Shown here: positions 1 to 19,299 of the stretch, piece by piece
Layout: each line of letters begins with the position of its first letter
How positions within the stretch are numbered: position 1 is the first letter of the stretch
Origin: a virus
Virus record (IMG/VR): IMGVR_UViG_3300040801_001203
Span: 1 to 21,706 of that record
Strand: one strand, 5' to 3'
Length of the DNA stretch: 21,706 bases
The notes under the pieces: generated by a model
Databases searched by the model: none
What the model was told of the DNA's origin: nothing
The model's input: the letters and a program-made list of their open reading frames with translations, nothing else
Program-made: the position numbers and the translations under genes

Positions 1-172
1 ATCGTCCTGGACGACGGCACCGAGTGGGCGACCATGATCGAGGACGTCCGCCTGTCCAACGCGGACCCGCAGGCGCTGCAGATCGGCCGGTTCTGGCAGC
101 GGTGGGACGCGGTCGACCCGGACCCGGCGAAGCGGACCGCCGTCAGCGCGGCGAAGACCATCGCGCAGACGC
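1..172 (+). pseudogene. Fragment of a DEDDh exonuclease gene
   Basis: Frame 1 encodes IVLDDGTEWATMIEDVRLSN and continues to about TIAQT, matching residues 40-96 of the intact exonuclease at 801-1442. After 172 the frame runs 32 codons into unrelated sequence and stops at 265-267. Relative to the intact gene there are four clustered base changes (codons CTG CAG ATC against CTC GAG GTG) and one GCG/GTG change, so this is a slightly diverged copy, not an identical duplicate. None of the catalytic residues lies in the fragment, so it cannot be functional by itself. Sequence left of position 1 is not visible, so a larger upstream paralogue cannot be excluded. Confidence 0.6.
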
Positions 173-252
173 AGAGCCATCTCTGCCTGGGTCAGGCCCG
201 CGAGCTTGCGGCCGTAGGCGAGCCGGTGTCCGAGAGCGGCGTGCGCATCCAT
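1..252 (-). pseudogene. XRE-type repressor, N-terminal fragment running into foreign sequence
   Basis: Read leftward from an ATG at 252-250, the first ~27 codons give MDAHAALGHRLAYGRKLAGL followed by TQAEMAL, the usual opening of a Cro/CI (XRE) helix-turn-helix: helix 1 with RLAYGRKLAGLTQ, then the start of helix 2. An AGAGGAGG ribosome binding site lies just upstream (about 256-265), so the start is well supported. From about 172 down to 1 the frame stays open but encodes only the antisense of an exonuclease fragment, with no repressor similarity, so the recognition helix and everything after it are lost. Divergent orientation to the next gene and a palindrome between them fit a lysogeny repressor. 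The break may be a real rearrangement or an assembly join at the window edge; the frame is also cut by the window start. Confidence 0.6.
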
Positions 253-278
253 GGTGCCCTCCTCTAGTAGGTCCCTCG

Positions 279-321: not shown

Positions 322-349
322 TTGACTAGGGCGCGCCGTCGTGTAAAGT
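322..349 (+). promoter_or_regulatory. Rightward sigma70-like early promoter
   Basis: TTGACT (322-327) and TAAAGT (344-349) are separated by 16 bp, giving a predicted start near 356 and a leader of roughly 27 nt to the TTG codon at 383. This is the best promoter match in the window and stands in an AT-richer pocket. It would drive the HTH gene and possibly the whole early operon. Confidence 0.65.
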
Positions 350-382
350 GCGGATGTCGCACGAAGATGGAGGATGCGCACC

Positions 383-598
383 TTGGCTGAGAGCCCGCTC
401 TACGCCGCAGCCGACAGGATGCTGCGCAACGCCCACGGCATCACCCTCGAGGACTGGCTGAGCAAGTACGCCGGCGTGGGGATGTCCAGCCGCGCGATGG
501 CCGAGCTCCTCGCCGTCGAGACCGAGGGCGTCGTCACGGTCTCGCGAGAGGCCATCCGTCGCTGGGTCGCCGCCATCGATCACGAGCCGGCCGCGTGA
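383..598 (+). CDS. Small helix-turn-helix protein, Cro/activator-like position
   Basis: A 71-residue protein whose second half (SSRAMAELLAVE, then VSREAIRRWV) has the look of a helix-turn-helix: a helix with Ala-Glu-Leu-Leu, a short turn and a recognition helix with Arg-Arg-Trp. I choose the TTG at 383 because GGAGG at 369-373 is nine bases upstream. The ATG at 374, three codons earlier in the same frame, directly abuts that GGAGG and would be badly spaced. As the first gene to the right of the promoter and divergent from a repressor, it occupies the place of a Cro-like or early regulator. The DNA-binding call rests on pattern only; the exact family is not recognised. Confidence 0.7.
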   Translation: MAESPLYAAADRMLRNAHGITLEDWLSKYAGVGMSSRAMAELLAVETEGVVTVSREAIRRWVAAIDHEPAA

Positions 599-800: not shown

Positions 801-1442
801 ATGATGACACCGACATCAACGAAGCATCCCAGCGTCCGACAGCCCGCCGGATGGGCAAGCGTCGACTGCGAGACCACCGGCCTGGTCGCGGGCATCCACC
901 AGATCTGGGAGGTCGCGATCGTCCTGGACGACGGCACCGAGTGGGCGACCATGATCGAGGACGTCCGCCTGTCCAACGCGGACCCGCAGGCGCTCGAGGT
1001 GGGCCGGTTCTGGCAGCGGTGGGACGTGGTCGACCCGGACCCGGCGAAGCGGACCGCCGTCAGCGCGGCGAAGACCATCGCGCAGACGCTGGCGGGGCGG
1101 GTGATGGTCGGGTCGAACCCGGCGTTCGACGCCCGGTTCCTCGAGCAGCTGCTGCGTGGCGCGAACCGGGCGCCGTCGTGGCACTACTCGGTGGTGGACA
1201 TCAAGGCCATGGCGGCCGGCTGGCTGCACGCCGCGGTCCTGTTCGACGGCGTGGACGAGGAGCTGCAGCCCACCACCCTGCCCTGGTCGTCCTACGCCCT
1301 GTCCGAAGCGTGCGGCGTCGCCCCTCCGTCCCACGAGGAGCGCCACAGCGCGCTCGGCGATGCCAGATGGGCCGCCCGCCTGTACCGCCGGCTGACCGGC
1401 GAGGTGGACCGGCTCGTCGCGCTGCAGGAGGTGCCGTCGTGA
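801..1442 (+). CDS. DnaQ-like DEDDh 3'-5' exonuclease
   Basis: A 213-residue single-domain exonuclease of the DnaQ/RNase T superfamily, which removes nucleotides from 3' ends using two metal ions. All five signature residues are visible: D22 and E24 in VDCETTG, D110 in NPAFDARFL, and H182 with D187 in RHSALGDA, so it is the DEDDh type. AGGAG at 786-790 lies 10 nt before the ATG; an adjacent second ATG at 804 is an alternative. It opens the long early operon and overlaps the next gene by GTGA. In phages such proteins proofread for the replicase or process recombination ends; no polymerase gene is in this window, so the partner is unknown. A piece of this gene is repeated at 1-172. Confidence 0.9.
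   Translation: MMTPTSTKHPSVRQPAGWASVDCETTGLVAGIHQIWEVAIVLDDGTEWATMIEDVRLSNADPQALEVGRFWQRWDVVDPDPAKRTAVSAAKTIAQTLAGRVMVGSNPAFDARFLEQLLRGANRAPSWHYSVVDIKAMAAGWLHAAVLFDGVDEELQPTTLPWSSYALSEACGVAPPSHEERHSALGDARWAARLYRRLTGEVDRLVALQEVPS
918..1089 (+). repeat. 172-bp direct repeat, partner of 1-172
   Basis: Positions 918-1089 inside the exonuclease gene match 1-172 with an offset of 917 bp and five mismatches. Four of these fall within eight bases (copy 1 at about 77-83) and one lies at copy-1 position 109. Similarity ends sharply after GCGCAGACGC in both copies. The left end coincides with the window start, so the true length of the repeat is unknown. Confidence 0.85.
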
Positions 1443-5853: not shown

Positions 5854-6788
5854 CCAACGAACCGCGCAAGCTCGGCCTCACCCCCATCGACGTCAAGCAG
5901 CCCGACGAGCACGACCGGCTCTTCTGGTCCGTGACCTCCATCATCGGCGTGCTCGAGAAGCCCGGCCTCCTCTACTGGGCCGCCGAAGAAGCCGCCAAGG
6001 CGGCCGTGTCCTCCGCCCGGTCCCTTCCCGCCCGTGTCGAAGAAGAAGGCGAAGAGGCGGTCGTGAAGTGGCTTCGCGACGCACGGTTCCGCCGACCCAA
6101 GGACCGGCTGTCCGCCACCTCCCTCGGATCCGTCGCCCACGCCGCCTGCGAGGAGTACGCCCTGACCGGCACCCGGCCCGACCGCGACCACCTCGAGCAG
6201 CTCGTCAACGCCGAAGCCGGACACGGGTTCACCGGAACCACCGCCGAGACCGACGTCATCGACCTCATGCTCGACCGGTTCGACGGCTGGCTTCAACGGT
6301 TCACCCCCCAGTACCAGGCCCCCGAGGTCGTCGTGTACGACACCAGGTACGGCTACGCCGGCCAGTCCGACGCGTTCCTGACCGTGGACGGTTTCCGCGC
6401 GATCGTGGATTACAAGTCGTCCCGAGAGCCCCGCGACTCCCGCGGCAAGCCGAAGACCCCGTACCCCGAGGTCGCCCTCCAGCTTGCCGCCTACCGGCAC
6501 GCCGAGTTCGCCGCCGTGTGGCGGCCGCGCCGGACCGAGAAGATGCGCCGCCGCTACTACGCGCTGTCCCCGGAGGAGGAGCAGCTCGCCGTTCCCGTCC
6601 CCGAGGTCGACGGCGGCCTGGTCATCCACCTCACCACCGAGGCGTGCGAGGCCTACCCGGTCGACTGCGGCTCCGACCGGCACACCGACTTCCTCTACAT
6701 CCAGGAGGCGTTCCGCGCGAACCAGAACCTCAAGACGGCGCTCGGACCACCCCTTGAGGCCCCAACGCTTGCGGAGGTGCCAGCATGA
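5850..6788 (+). CDS. RecB-like PD-(D/E)XK nuclease
   Basis: A 312-residue nuclease of the PDDEXK_1/RecB-Cas4 group. The order of motifs is standard: SLGSVAHAACEEYAL (H97, helix E101-E102), YAGQSDAFLTV (D174), the catalytic IVDYKSS (D187, K189), and VALQLAAYRHAEF (Q211, Y215). No Walker motif or Cys cluster for an iron-sulfur site is visible, so this is a stand-alone nuclease without helicase or Cas4 cluster. In phages such proteins act as 5'-3' or 3'-5' exonucleases feeding recombination. It precedes the Gp3-SAP protein with an ATGA overlap, so the two probably act in the same DNA-processing step. The ATG at 5850 was chosen because it follows AGAGG and an overlap. Confidence 0.88.
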   Translation: MTNEPRKLGLTPIDVKQPDEHDRLFWSVTSIIGVLEKPGLLYWAAEEAAKAAVSSARSLPARVEEEGEEAVVKWLRDARFRRPKDRLSATSLGSVAHAACEEYALTGTRPDRDHLEQLVNAEAGHGFTGTTAETDVIDLMLDRFDGWLQRFTPQYQAPEVVVYDTRYGYAGQSDAFLTVDGFRAIVDYKSSREPRDSRGKPKTPYPEVALQLAAYRHAEFAAVWRPRRTEKMRRRYYALSPEEEQLAVPVPEVDGGLVIHLTTEACEAYPVDCGSDRHTDFLYIQEAFRANQNLKTALGPPLEAPTLAEVPA

Positions 6789-8533
6789 CCATCCTGGACC
6801 TGCAGCGACGCATCCGAGAGGCTGGACGCATCCGGATCGGACAGAAGGACGCCGGCCGCGGCTTCCCTAAGAAGCTCGACACGTTTCGGCTCACCTCGCC
6901 AGACCGGCGCGCCATCGAGCAGGCCGCAGGGATGTACGGCGGGAAGCCCGAGCCGTGGGACGCCCCCGCCGGCCGCCAGTGGCAGGTCGTGACCGGCGTG
7001 GACGAGCTCGACGTGATCGTCCCCCCGTCCGACATGGCGTTCTCCCAGCACTACGAGCTCTGGTCCGGCGGCGGCTGCCAGCGTCGCTGCGACGGATTCA
7101 CCGAGCAGATCACCGACGGCCCCTGCCTGTGCGACCCCGACGAACGCGAGTGCAAGCCCCACACCCGCCTCTCCGTGATGCTCCGTGAGCTCGTAGGCCT
7201 GGGCGTGTGGCGGCTGGACACTCAGGGGTTCTACGCCGCCGTGGAGCTCTCCGGAGCCGTCCAGGTCGTCCAGGCCGCGGCCGGTGCAGGCGTGATGCTT
7301 CCCGCCAGACTTCGACTCGAGCAGCGTCAGATCAGACGGCCAGGGCAGCCGACCCGGAACTTCGCGGTCCCGACGCTCGATGTCCACGTCACCCCTGAGC
7401 AGCTGTTCGGCGGCCAGGCCGGCGGGATGTCGCTCGCCACCGGGCCCAAGCCCGCCGGCCACCTCGGCAACGGCGCCCCCGAGCTCCCTGCGGGCGACGA
7501 CCCGGCACCCATGCAGTCCAGCCACCTCACCCCGGTCCCCAAGGAGGTGGAGGAGCGTCCCGCGAGGTCCGTGGCCGACCAGGTCGCAGACGCGTCCGGG
7601 AAGGGCGGCGGTGTCAGGCGTGCCGGCGCAGCAGCCCCCGTACCTGCGACCGGGCTCCGGCCGCGCACCACCGCGGAAGCCGCCGCGGGAACTCAGCCTG
7701 AACGTGGCCAGCCGGAAGGTGTCGCGACCGTCTCCGGAGACGACCTGGAGTCCCTCACGGTCGCGCAGCTCAAGATCCGATGCAAGCGTGCGGACCTGCC
7801 GGTGTCCGGCACGAAGGCCGAGCTCATCGAACGCCTGCAGGCAAGCACCGGCGCCACCCCGGCCGAAGACGCCGAGCCACCGCACGACGACGCCGAGCAT
7901 GGCAGCACCGACAAGGACGGTCCGATGACCGACGGGCAGCGCCGCAAGCTGTTCGCCACGTTCCGCGAGCACGGCATCAGCGACCAGCAACGCAAGGCCG
8001 TCCTGGCATCCCGCTACCAGCTCGACACCATGAACGACCTCAGCTTCACGCAGGCCGCCTGGATCATCGACCGGCTGGAGCAGGAAGGCGGGCCCGACGC
8101 CTTCAAGGCCGTGGCAGACGACTGGCTCTCCGCACAGCAGCACGACGAAGAAGGCCCTGACCCGGCCCCGTGCGAAGCCTGCGGCGAGCTGATCGCCGGA
8201 GAACACGACTGCCAGGACACCCCCGACCCTGAACCTGAGGTCGAGGCTCAACTTGAGGTTCAGGGTTCCCCTCAGTCGCTCGCGGAACGCGCCAGATCGC
8301 ACGCCTCCGGCACTTCGGAGACCGTCGACACCTACCAAGACCGGATCCGAAAGGCCTTCTCCGTCCTCGCCGTGAAGGACAACGCCATCTACGAGGGCGG
8401 GTGGCAGCGCCTCCAGGACATCACCGATGGCCGGGCATCCCATACCGACTGGACAGGCGCCTCAGAAGGGCGGCTTCGTTCGCTCGCCGAAGACATGGAA
8501 CGCGCCGTCGACAGGCTGGAAGGCCGACCATGA
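6785..8533 (+). CDS. Gp3-like RDF domain fused to SAP and zinc modules
   Basis: A 582-residue protein. Residues 1 to about 212 resemble the phiC31 Gp3 recombination-directionality-factor-like family: MTILDLQRRIREAGRIRIGQ, then a Cys cluster (C98, C102, C114, C116, C123, H126) around ELWSGGGCQRRCDG and PCLCDPDERECKPHTRLSVM, ending VTPEQLFGGQ. After a disordered linker (213-318) comes a SAP DNA-binding motif (319-353, LTVAQLKIRCKRADLPVSGT then KAELIERL), a small helical domain (381-432, MTDGQRRKLFATFREHGISD), a CEAC...HDC zinc-like site (463-476) and a C-terminal helical domain (514-575). Gp3 itself is about 244 residues and switches its serine integrase to excision. The extended form here sits beside a RecB-like nuclease and RusA with no integrase in view, so a general recombination or single-strand-handling role is at least as likely. 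Confidence 0.75.
   Translation: MTILDLQRRIREAGRIRIGQKDAGRGFPKKLDTFRLTSPDRRAIEQAAGMYGGKPEPWDAPAGRQWQVVTGVDELDVIVPPSDMAFSQHYELWSGGGCQRRCDGFTEQITDGPCLCDPDERECKPHTRLSVMLRELVGLGVWRLDTQGFYAAVELSGAVQVVQAAAGAGVMLPARLRLEQRQIRRPGQPTRNFAVPTLDVHVTPEQLFGGQAGGMSLATGPKPAGHLGNGAPELPAGDDPAPMQSSHLTPVPKEVEERPARSVADQVADASGKGGGVRRAGAAAPVPATGLRPRTTAEAAAGTQPERGQPEGVATVSGDDLESLTVAQLKIRCKRADLPVSGTKAELIERLQASTGATPAEDAEPPHDDAEHGSTDKDGPMTDGQRRKLFATFREHGISDQQRKAVLASRYQLDTMNDLSFTQAAWIIDRLEQEGGPDAFKAVADDWLSAQQHDEEGPDPAPCEACGELIAGEHDCQDTPDPEPEVEAQLEVQGSPQSLAERARSHASGTSETVDTYQDRIRKAFSVLAVKDNAIYEGGWQRLQDITDGRASHTDWTGASEGRLRSLAEDMERAVDRLEGRP
8226..8266 (+). repeat. Intragenic 11-bp inverted repeat
   Basis: ACCCTGAACCT (8226-8236) and AGGTTCAGGGT (8256-8266) are perfect inverted arms 19 bp apart, with some further pairing inside. 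They lie in the Glu-rich linker of the Gp3-SAP protein after the zinc-like site. The arms are less GC-rich than neighbouring DNA and encode DPEPE and EVQGS. An RNA hairpin or a protein-binding site is possible. Confidence 0.6.
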
Positions 8534-9270: not shown

Positions 9271-10091
9271 TGGCATGGATCGAGTCCCACCAGGACCTCC
9301 GCACCAACCCCAAGGCCAAGCGCCTCGCGCGCCTCCTCGACGTGCCCCTCGCGCAAGCCATCGGCCATCTTCACATGCTCTGGTGGTGGGCACTGGACCA
9401 CGCCGAAGACGGCAACCTGGGGCGCGTCGACGCCTACGACATCGCCGATGGAGCCGACTGGCAGGGCGACGAACACGCCTTCGTTCAAGCCCTCATCGAC
9501 TGTGGACCAGGGGACCGCACAGGATTCGTAGAACGTGCGGCTAGCGGACATCTGCTCTTGCACGACTGGCACGAATACACGCTCGCGCTCCGCGCTTCAC
9601 GCGAGGGATCCGCACGCGGGAACCACACGCGCTGGCACACGAAAAGGGGGATTCAGGACCCTTCCTGCCCATTCTGTGCATCGCCCCCCGACTCGCCCCC
9701 GATATCGCCCCCGATATCGCCCCCGACGTCGGGACCGAATCGGGTGGGAGTCGCCCCCGAATCGGGTCCGACATCCACCAACCAACCAACCAACCAACCA
9801 ACCAACCAAGGGGCCGCGCGCGAGGGCGCCGAAGACGGCCCGGGCCACCCCCCCCCAGTCAGCAACGGGCACCCCAAGACCCCAACCCGCTGGGACCACG
9901 CCTGGGCACGCATCCAGACCTACGTCAAGCAGTACGGCTCGCAAGACCCCACCCGCCCACCACCCGACGAGTTCTTCGACCAGCACACCCTCGCCGTCCT
10001 TCGGTCCATCGGCGGCACCTCCGCCGTCCGACGCGACGAGATCGGCAAGTTCGACTTCCGCGACGCCTGGAAAGAGCACCCCGAACCATGA
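9270..10091 (+). CDS. Replication-initiator-like protein with internal repeats
   Basis: A 273-residue protein starting at TGATG. The N-terminus (MAWIESHQDLRTNPKAKRLA, then LHMLWWWALDHAEDGNLG and a GHLLLHDWHEYT block) matches the winged-helix-type domain found at the start of many actinophage replication initiator or helicase-loader proteins. A Cys pair CPFC (133-136) is followed by a Pro/Ser/Asn/Gln linker (138-180) made entirely of DNA repeats. The C-terminal part (207-273) ends FDFRDAWKEHPEP. It overlaps the DnaB-like gene by ATGA, the expected initiator-helicase pairing. It probably binds the phage origin and recruits the helicase, but this is inference from domain type and neighbours. Confidence 0.7.
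   Translation: MAWIESHQDLRTNPKAKRLARLLDVPLAQAIGHLHMLWWWALDHAEDGNLGRVDAYDIADGADWQGDEHAFVQALIDCGPGDRTGFVERAASGHLLLHDWHEYTLALRASREGSARGNHTRWHTKRGIQDPSCPFCASPPDSPPISPPISPPTSGPNRVGVAPESGPTSTNQPTNQPTNQGAAREGAEDGPGHPPPVSNGHPKTPTRWDHAWARIQTYVKQYGSQDPTRPPPDEFFDQHTLAVLRSIGGTSAVRRDEIGKFDFRDAWKEHPEP
9681..9767 (+). repeat. Iteron-like 12-bp repeats in the initiator gene
   Basis: TCGCCCCCGA occurs at 9693, 9705, 9717 and 9751, and with one extra C at 9681. The first four are phased at exactly 12 bp. A second direct repeat, CCGAATCGGGT, occurs at 9735-9745 and 9757-9767. The repeats encode a SPPISPPIS-type linker. Their place inside an initiator gene, with regular spacing, recalls phage lambda O, where origin iterons lie within the initiator coding region. 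No AT-rich unwinding element is obvious next to them. Confidence 0.6.
9778..9809 (+). repeat. (CCAA)8 tetranucleotide microsatellite
   Basis: Eight perfect tandem CCAA units lie within the initiator gene directly after the iteron-like array, encoding TNQP repeats. A four-base unit in coding DNA means any gain or loss not divisible by three changes the reading frame. This is the longest simple repeat seen in the window and stands out from the GC-rich background. Confidence 0.9.
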
Positions 10092-18399: not shown

Positions 18400-19299
18400 A
18401 TGGCCGTTCTCGAAACCGGGGATCTCAGCCTCCCCCCCCAGATCCTCGACCCCTGGTTGGGCAAGGTCCAGCACGGCTCGTCCGTCGCCGCCCTGTCGAA
18501 CTCCATCCCGATGCAGTTCGGTGCCGGCCAGTCGATGACGTTCGACATCGGCGAGGCCGAGTACGTCGGTGAGGGCGCCAACAAGGGCGCGTCCACCGTG
18601 ACCCCGACCACCAAGACGGTCACCCCGTTCAAGTTCCACAAGACCGTCCGCTGGACGGAAGAGGTCATGTGGGCCGACGAGGACTACCAGCTCGGCGTTG
18701 TCGAGCAGATCCTCGGCGAGATCCAGCCGGCACTGTCCCGCGCACTCGACTACGGCGTCTACCACGGGATCAACCCGGCGGACGGCGCCGCCGTCGCAGC
18801 GATGACCGAGCACCTGTCGGACACCACCAACCTGGTGACCCGCCCGGCGGTCGACCCTGGCGCCCCGTACACCTACCTGGACTCCGCCGACGAGCTCGTC
18901 CTGGCCGACGACTACGTCCCCTCGGACGTGGCGATCGACCCGTCGTTCGCCGCCGGGTTCTCGACGCTTCGTGGCACGACCTCGGAGCAGAAGCTCTACC
19001 CGAACTTCCGGCTCACCACCGAGGTGTCCGAACTCGACGGCCACCGTGCGTCGGTGTCCAAGACGGTGCGGGCCACCGCGGCGGCTGCTGCGGCGACGAA
19101 CCTGCTCGCGTTCGTTGGGGACTTCTCGGCGATCCGCTGGGGCATCCAGCGGGCCATCGGCCTTGAGGTCATCCGCTACGGAGACCCGGACGGGCAGGGG
19201 GACCTGAAGCGCAACAACCAGGTCGCGTTCCGCGCCGAGGTCGTCTACGGCTGGGGCATCGCTGACCTGAACGCCTTCGCGAAGATCGTGCAGGGCTGA
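18400..19299 (+). CDS. Major capsid protein, HK97-fold type
   Basis: A 299-residue protein with AGGAGG (about 18388) before the ATG. The N-terminal PPQILDPWLGKVQHGSSVAA, the beta-rich TFDIGEAEYVGEGANKGAST and TVTPFKFHKTVRWTEEVMWA stretch, and the helix VEQILGEIQPALSRALDYGV match the N-arm, E-loop and spine helix order of HK97-fold capsids. The C-terminal QVAFRAEVVYGWGIADLNAF is the standard ending. The short N-terminal arm shows no delta domain, so a separate scaffold gene does that job. Confidence 0.95.
   Translation: MAVLETGDLSLPPQILDPWLGKVQHGSSVAALSNSIPMQFGAGQSMTFDIGEAEYVGEGANKGASTVTPTTKTVTPFKFHKTVRWTEEVMWADEDYQLGVVEQILGEIQPALSRALDYGVYHGINPADGAAVAAMTEHLSDTTNLVTRPAVDPGAPYTYLDSADELVLADDYVPSDVAIDPSFAAGFSTLRGTTSEQKLYPNFRLTTEVSELDGHRASVSKTVRATAAAAAATNLLAFVGDFSAIRWGIQRAIGLEVIRYGDPDGQGDLKRNNQVAFRAEVVYGWGIADLNAFAKIVQG

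Follow-up and report, generated by a model that had tools for sequence, protein, structure and literature searches.

Passages on assembly in published work describe a metaSPAdes run with k values of 21, 33, 55 and 77 (PMC7953547), attribute overlapping contig ends to the SPAdes process and give automatic k values of 21-55 for test reads (PMC5481147), and report that phage metagenomes show strain bubbles, contigs that end early and chimeric contigs caused by repeats (PMC10563150). The beginning of the contig studied here resembles a SPAdes-type de Bruijn contig end in that it carries an exact overlap of a standard k at its start, diverges at the next base and has no repeated (k+1)-mer. It differs from a SPAdes-type strain-variant edge in that its edge additionally spans a junction of two genome locations, so that a chimeric or rearranged molecule is needed besides strain variation.

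For gene content, the top-ranked terminase match among phage records was Arthrobacter phage Pitbull (54.9% over 94%, in a search where one record fell between 60 and 80% identity). In the divergent repressor/Cro-like immunity region of Pitbull (gp37/gp38), an HTH gene on the leftward strand faces a 74-aa HTH gene that runs rightward, both preceding the early genes, and our locus has a similar layout with its leftward repressor-like gene and rightward 74-aa ORF. The Pitbull repressor, however, aligns poorly (24%) with an 84-residue read-through at our locus, and the early genes differ; because this read-through is mostly antisense of an exonuclease copy, about 26 residues are comparable with the Pitbull repressor. 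The HTH regulators of Gordonia phages Malibo (gp34) and Opie (gp33), which we take to be XRE-type, show 51.7% identity over the N-terminal 29 residues, aligned from residue 1, but with a weak and non-significant score (E 6), and in both of these phages a same-strand upstream gene overlaps the regulator.

The window, by which we mean the whole stretch of DNA analysed, is the entire linear virus record IMGVR_UViG_3300040801_001203 (21,706 bases); position 1 is therefore a contig end, and the record is probably a fragment of a phage genome. The contig further carries genes for terminase, portal, capsid and tail tube proteins and for a DnaB-like helicase. Upstream of the helicase gene lie short tandem repeats (9693-9724 and 9777-9808), comprising a 20-mer that recurs every 12 nt and a series of ACCA tetranucleotides. 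There are no identical ends of 16-300 bases in the record, and the right end has no repeat within the contig; we considered and rejected a complete genome bounded by direct terminal repeats, the right end being unlike the left end.

The capsid gene (18400-19299) has 151 confirmed relatives in viral contigs, with identities of up to 81% among the best 80 of the 151 (L005-L084), and a relative at 77% in a Geodermatophilus genome. From the terminase match, the Pitbull-like gene layout, the capsid relatives and the Gp3-like domain described below, we infer that we are very likely dealing with an actinobacteriophage, one that is probably temperate. DNA matches to phage records were distant only (15 records, 3-7% of the query), and a plasmid search gave no match. 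The same method that yielded 151 capsid relatives confirmed no viral-contig relatives for the exonuclease (0 of 6 pattern stretches) or the 74-aa ORF (0 of 10 pattern stretches), and exact sequence patterns returned 0 matches each. Searches of 48 of the 80 capsid-relative records, the 32 with contigs of 7.1 kb or less being left out, recovered the exonuclease, the 74-aa ORF and the repressor start in 0 of 48 each, in sets that carried no positive control; the exonuclease was likewise found in 0 of 8 genomes with a capsid relative. Across the viral contigs, the exact patterns, the 48 capsid-relative records and the 8 genomes, no intact repressor was found in a near relative, in searches that may miss records very close to the window.

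Table 1. Features of the window, with positions, strand and the evidence for each
Feature	Position	Strand	Evidence
Exact copy of 918-994, read as k-mer overlap at a de Bruijn graph branch	1-77	+	k-mer count
Variant copy of the exonuclease gene from codon 40 to the first base of codon 97	1-172	+	5 mismatches to 918-1089
Junction	163-173		GCGCAGACGC at 163-172 common to 1080-1089; first difference at 173
Repressor-like gene, first 26-27 codons, cut at junction	173-252	-	Weak profile matches
Ribosome binding site AGGAGG of repressor-like gene	258-263	-	Read directly, 5 nt upstream of ATG
Promoter-like site TTGACT-16-TAAAGT for rightward gene	322-349	+	1 in 1-1000 vs. mean of 0.1 in shuffles
74-aa ORF, Cro-like gene position	374-598	+	HTH match E 0.029, below Pfam cut-off
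DnaQ-like exonuclease, open throughout	801-1442	+	Pfam RNase_T 36.5 bits (cut-off 24); phrog_192 E 1.8e-26
Repeated part of exonuclease gene	918-1089	+	Repeat search
Gp3-like recombination directionality factor domain (residues 14-200) and SAP domain (residues 320-352)	6785-8533	+	Profile search

A repeat search identified positions 1-172 and 918-1089 as a two-copy direct repeat in the same orientation with 97% identity, whose ungapped match stops at 172. No other direct repeat listed for the window is longer than 39 nt (72% identity), which argues that the 1-172 repeat is not due to chance. Both the search and the sequence bear out the initial annotation in its description of a 172-bp segment joined to a repressor N-terminus, and also in its description of clustered mismatches: the two copies differ at positions 78, 79, 82, 84 and 110, with four of the five differences falling inside 7 bases. 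Given this clustering, a simple duplicated read was rejected, and we think sequencing error unlikely. The variant codons of the 1-172 copy comprise one silent change (codon 65) and three replacements (66, E to Q; 67, V to I; 76, V to A).

From position 1, the match to 918-994 is exact for 77 bases and breaks at 78. A second exact run, at 111-172, spans 62 bases, fewer than 77, and would thus stay unmerged at k=77. Counting k-mers, we found a single repeated 77-mer in the contig, located at 1 and 918, and no repeated 78-mer on either strand, which is the pattern of a de Bruijn contig end at k=77: the k-mer at the start recurs and its two occurrences diverge at base k+1, with no (k+1)-mer repeated.

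We additionally modelled the region as a toy graph, using pieces of the window plus a random left flank, at k = 33, 55, 63, 69, 77, 87, 99 and 127. At k=77 the graph was cut at 1, 173-249 and 918-994, and its edges 1-249, 173-994 and 918-onward chain to the recorded window. An edge starting at 1 and holding both the variant and the junction appeared at k=77 only among the 8 k values, and at k=33 and 55 the 62-base run became a shared edge. As the toy graph was built from the same sequence, it tests where the boundaries fall, not whether the junction is true. Of 85 further stretches compared, whose ends are not all contig ends, none had an end with at least 20 bases repeated exactly within the same stretch; for the best 80 capsid-relative loci, 54 are whole contigs and the rest are cut-out stretches with at least one uninformative end. 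Nor were there any exact end matches of 77 bases between the other records, most of which come from different assemblies, so that little such matching is to be expected.

We consider it probable that the broken repressor is a seam of a k=77 de Bruijn assembly that joined two close variants at a contig end. Bases 1-249 would then be one short edge of the k=77 graph, and the record would begin at a branching 77-mer. The main phage sequence has an intact exonuclease at 801-1442, and some molecules would carry a close exonuclease variant joined at 172/173 to the start of the repressor gene. Such molecules would most likely derive from a related strain, either as chimeras formed during library preparation or amplification or as a rearranged minority. 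Reads of these variant molecules would match the main path over at least 77 bases, part from it at the first variant base (78) and rejoin it at 173, creating a loop that the assembler would have taken instead of, or for lack of, the true leftward continuation of the repressor. The repeat, its mismatches, the exact 77-base overlap, the lack of repeated 78-mers and the k=77 cuts of the toy graph are observed; which assembler and k were used, that the molecules are chimeric and that the main phage has an intact repressor is what we infer.

The initial annotation had offered two interpretations of the break, and the exact 77-base overlap at position 1 and the toy graph support one of them, namely a misassembly mixing related phages at a contig end, without amounting to proof. 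Against such a seam, k=77 rests on one coincidence, whose random chance we estimate at about 1 in 172, or a few in 172 when any standard k is allowed. Some assembly pipelines end at k = 127. Nor does SPAdes always run up to 77, its automatic k values having ended at 55 for one set of test reads (PMC5481147). Further, the fact that the assembler chose the junction edge over any true repressor path suggests that the junction had real support.

We also compared the variant changes with homologues of the exonuclease, whose DnaQ-like (RNase_T) assignment scores above the curated cut-off. Relatives at E up to 1e-6 occur in 2 of 112 and 9 of 391 genomes in two larger groups, and the three best-scoring ones are 43-45% identical. 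The comparison covered nine stretches (7 of the 11 exonuclease-relative loci plus two phage stretches), all of which matched the exonuclease query; of the three replaced codons, 66 and 67 could be compared. Isoleucine at codon 67 is present in three of these nine (L099, L100 and L004), glutamine at codon 66 in none of the nine alignments, and L096 has the main version, L-E-V. The variant fragment scores like the main one (30.4 and 30.4 bits with L098; 33.5 and 31.2 bits with L099), and for L096 a match was listed to the main exonuclease fragment only. The V/I exchange at codon 67 among homologues makes the changes compatible with two real strains, i.e., with an origin of the variant in a related strain, although the homologues fall short of proof.

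On the other side of the junction, the minus strand from 252 reads MDAHAALGHRLAYGRKLAGLTQAEMA and enters the exonuclease copy within codon 27. The ATG of the repressor-like gene lies at 252-250, and the excellent ribosome binding site that had been attributed to it is present as described. A 29-residue start, the last two residues of which derive from the exonuclease copy, weakly matches PHROG regulators (phrog_5823, E 0.005 over residues 2-26; phrog_2328, E 0.02) and has no Pfam match at E up to 1, with only about 26 residues present. Across the junction the residues R-L are kept in the repressor frame and also occur in the Malibo regulator (MAARLGVS), which makes a short microhomology of about 6-10 bases plausible; such a microhomology would suit a chimeric molecule and illegitimate recombination alike.

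A perfect 10-nt inverted repeat, GTGCGCATCC / GGATGCGCAC, is present at 241-250 and 372-381, at the starts of the two divergent genes. One arm covers the start codon of the 74-aa ORF; the other covers codons 2-4 of the repressor-like gene together with the final base of its start codon. The repeat might be an operator pair or a chance occurrence. Further along the contig, a Gp3-like domain followed by a SAP DNA-binding domain is found in one 582-aa ORF. This recombination directionality factor domain is of a kind expected in temperate phages and suggests that the phage is one of them. Recombination directionality factors of the Gp3-like kind accompany a serine integrase, and the partner integrase would lie outside the contig.

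Retention of this excision-factor domain bears on the second interpretation in the initial annotation, by which a lysogeny-loss rearrangement had produced an obligately lytic variant: the C-terminal part of the repressor and the DNA beyond it would have been lost, with a stray exonuclease fragment in their place. The repressor frame is indeed cut at codon 26-27 in the record, but a distance of 172 bases separates the break from a contig end that begins at what resembles a k-mer boundary, the Gp3-like domain is retained, and the junction runs backward, joining 1089 to 173, which does not in itself take away the rest of the repressor. We found no support for this part of the annotation and regard lysogeny loss as very unlikely. 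As the backward join does not fit a deletion, an intact repressor may lie to the left of the contig.

Joins of this direction are typically left by tandem duplication, circle formation or template switching, and not by a simple deletion. If 173-1089 (917 bp) were truly duplicated in tandem, in the phage itself or in a co-occurring strain, the order would be an intact repressor, the 74-aa gene, a truncated exonuclease, the junction and a second copy with the intact exonuclease, so that repressor and exonuclease would each keep one intact copy. The copy does lie in the same orientation with 1089 joined back to 173, and a true tandem duplication would yield the same graph as the seam, here the graph of the toy model, while also explaining why the junction edge had sufficient support to be retained. 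A recent copy would be identical, however, and yet five mismatches are present, four of them in 7 bases; moreover, the other copy should span 917 bases, but the record shows just 172 of them. A start 77 bases before the first mismatch would be expected under duplication as well, and hence lends it no support. On balance we judge a real duplication unlikely, and it is somewhat more doubtful still that a diverged 917-bp duplication of the immunity region, containing the repressor start, the Cro-like gene and the exonuclease start and doubling the operator region, circulates in the phage population. A small circle of about 917 bp from a related strain, excised or amplified, could supply the 1089-to-173 junction too, giving the same backward join and the same graph loop, but no other sign of a circle was seen and the ORFs examined in 173-1089 (a non-exhaustive set) included none recognisable as a replication gene, making this origin extremely improbable.

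For metagenomic contig ends at large, a gene broken within a few hundred bases of the end calls for a check of exact k-mer overlaps before any biological explanation, and here counts of repeated 77-mers and 78-mers give the likely answer without reads. If the junction were real, its simplest explanation would be that the immunity region has been duplicated in tandem, an event of modest interest. With an assembly seam as the preferred reading, the apparent break of the repressor is probably ordinary and says little about the lifestyle of the phage.
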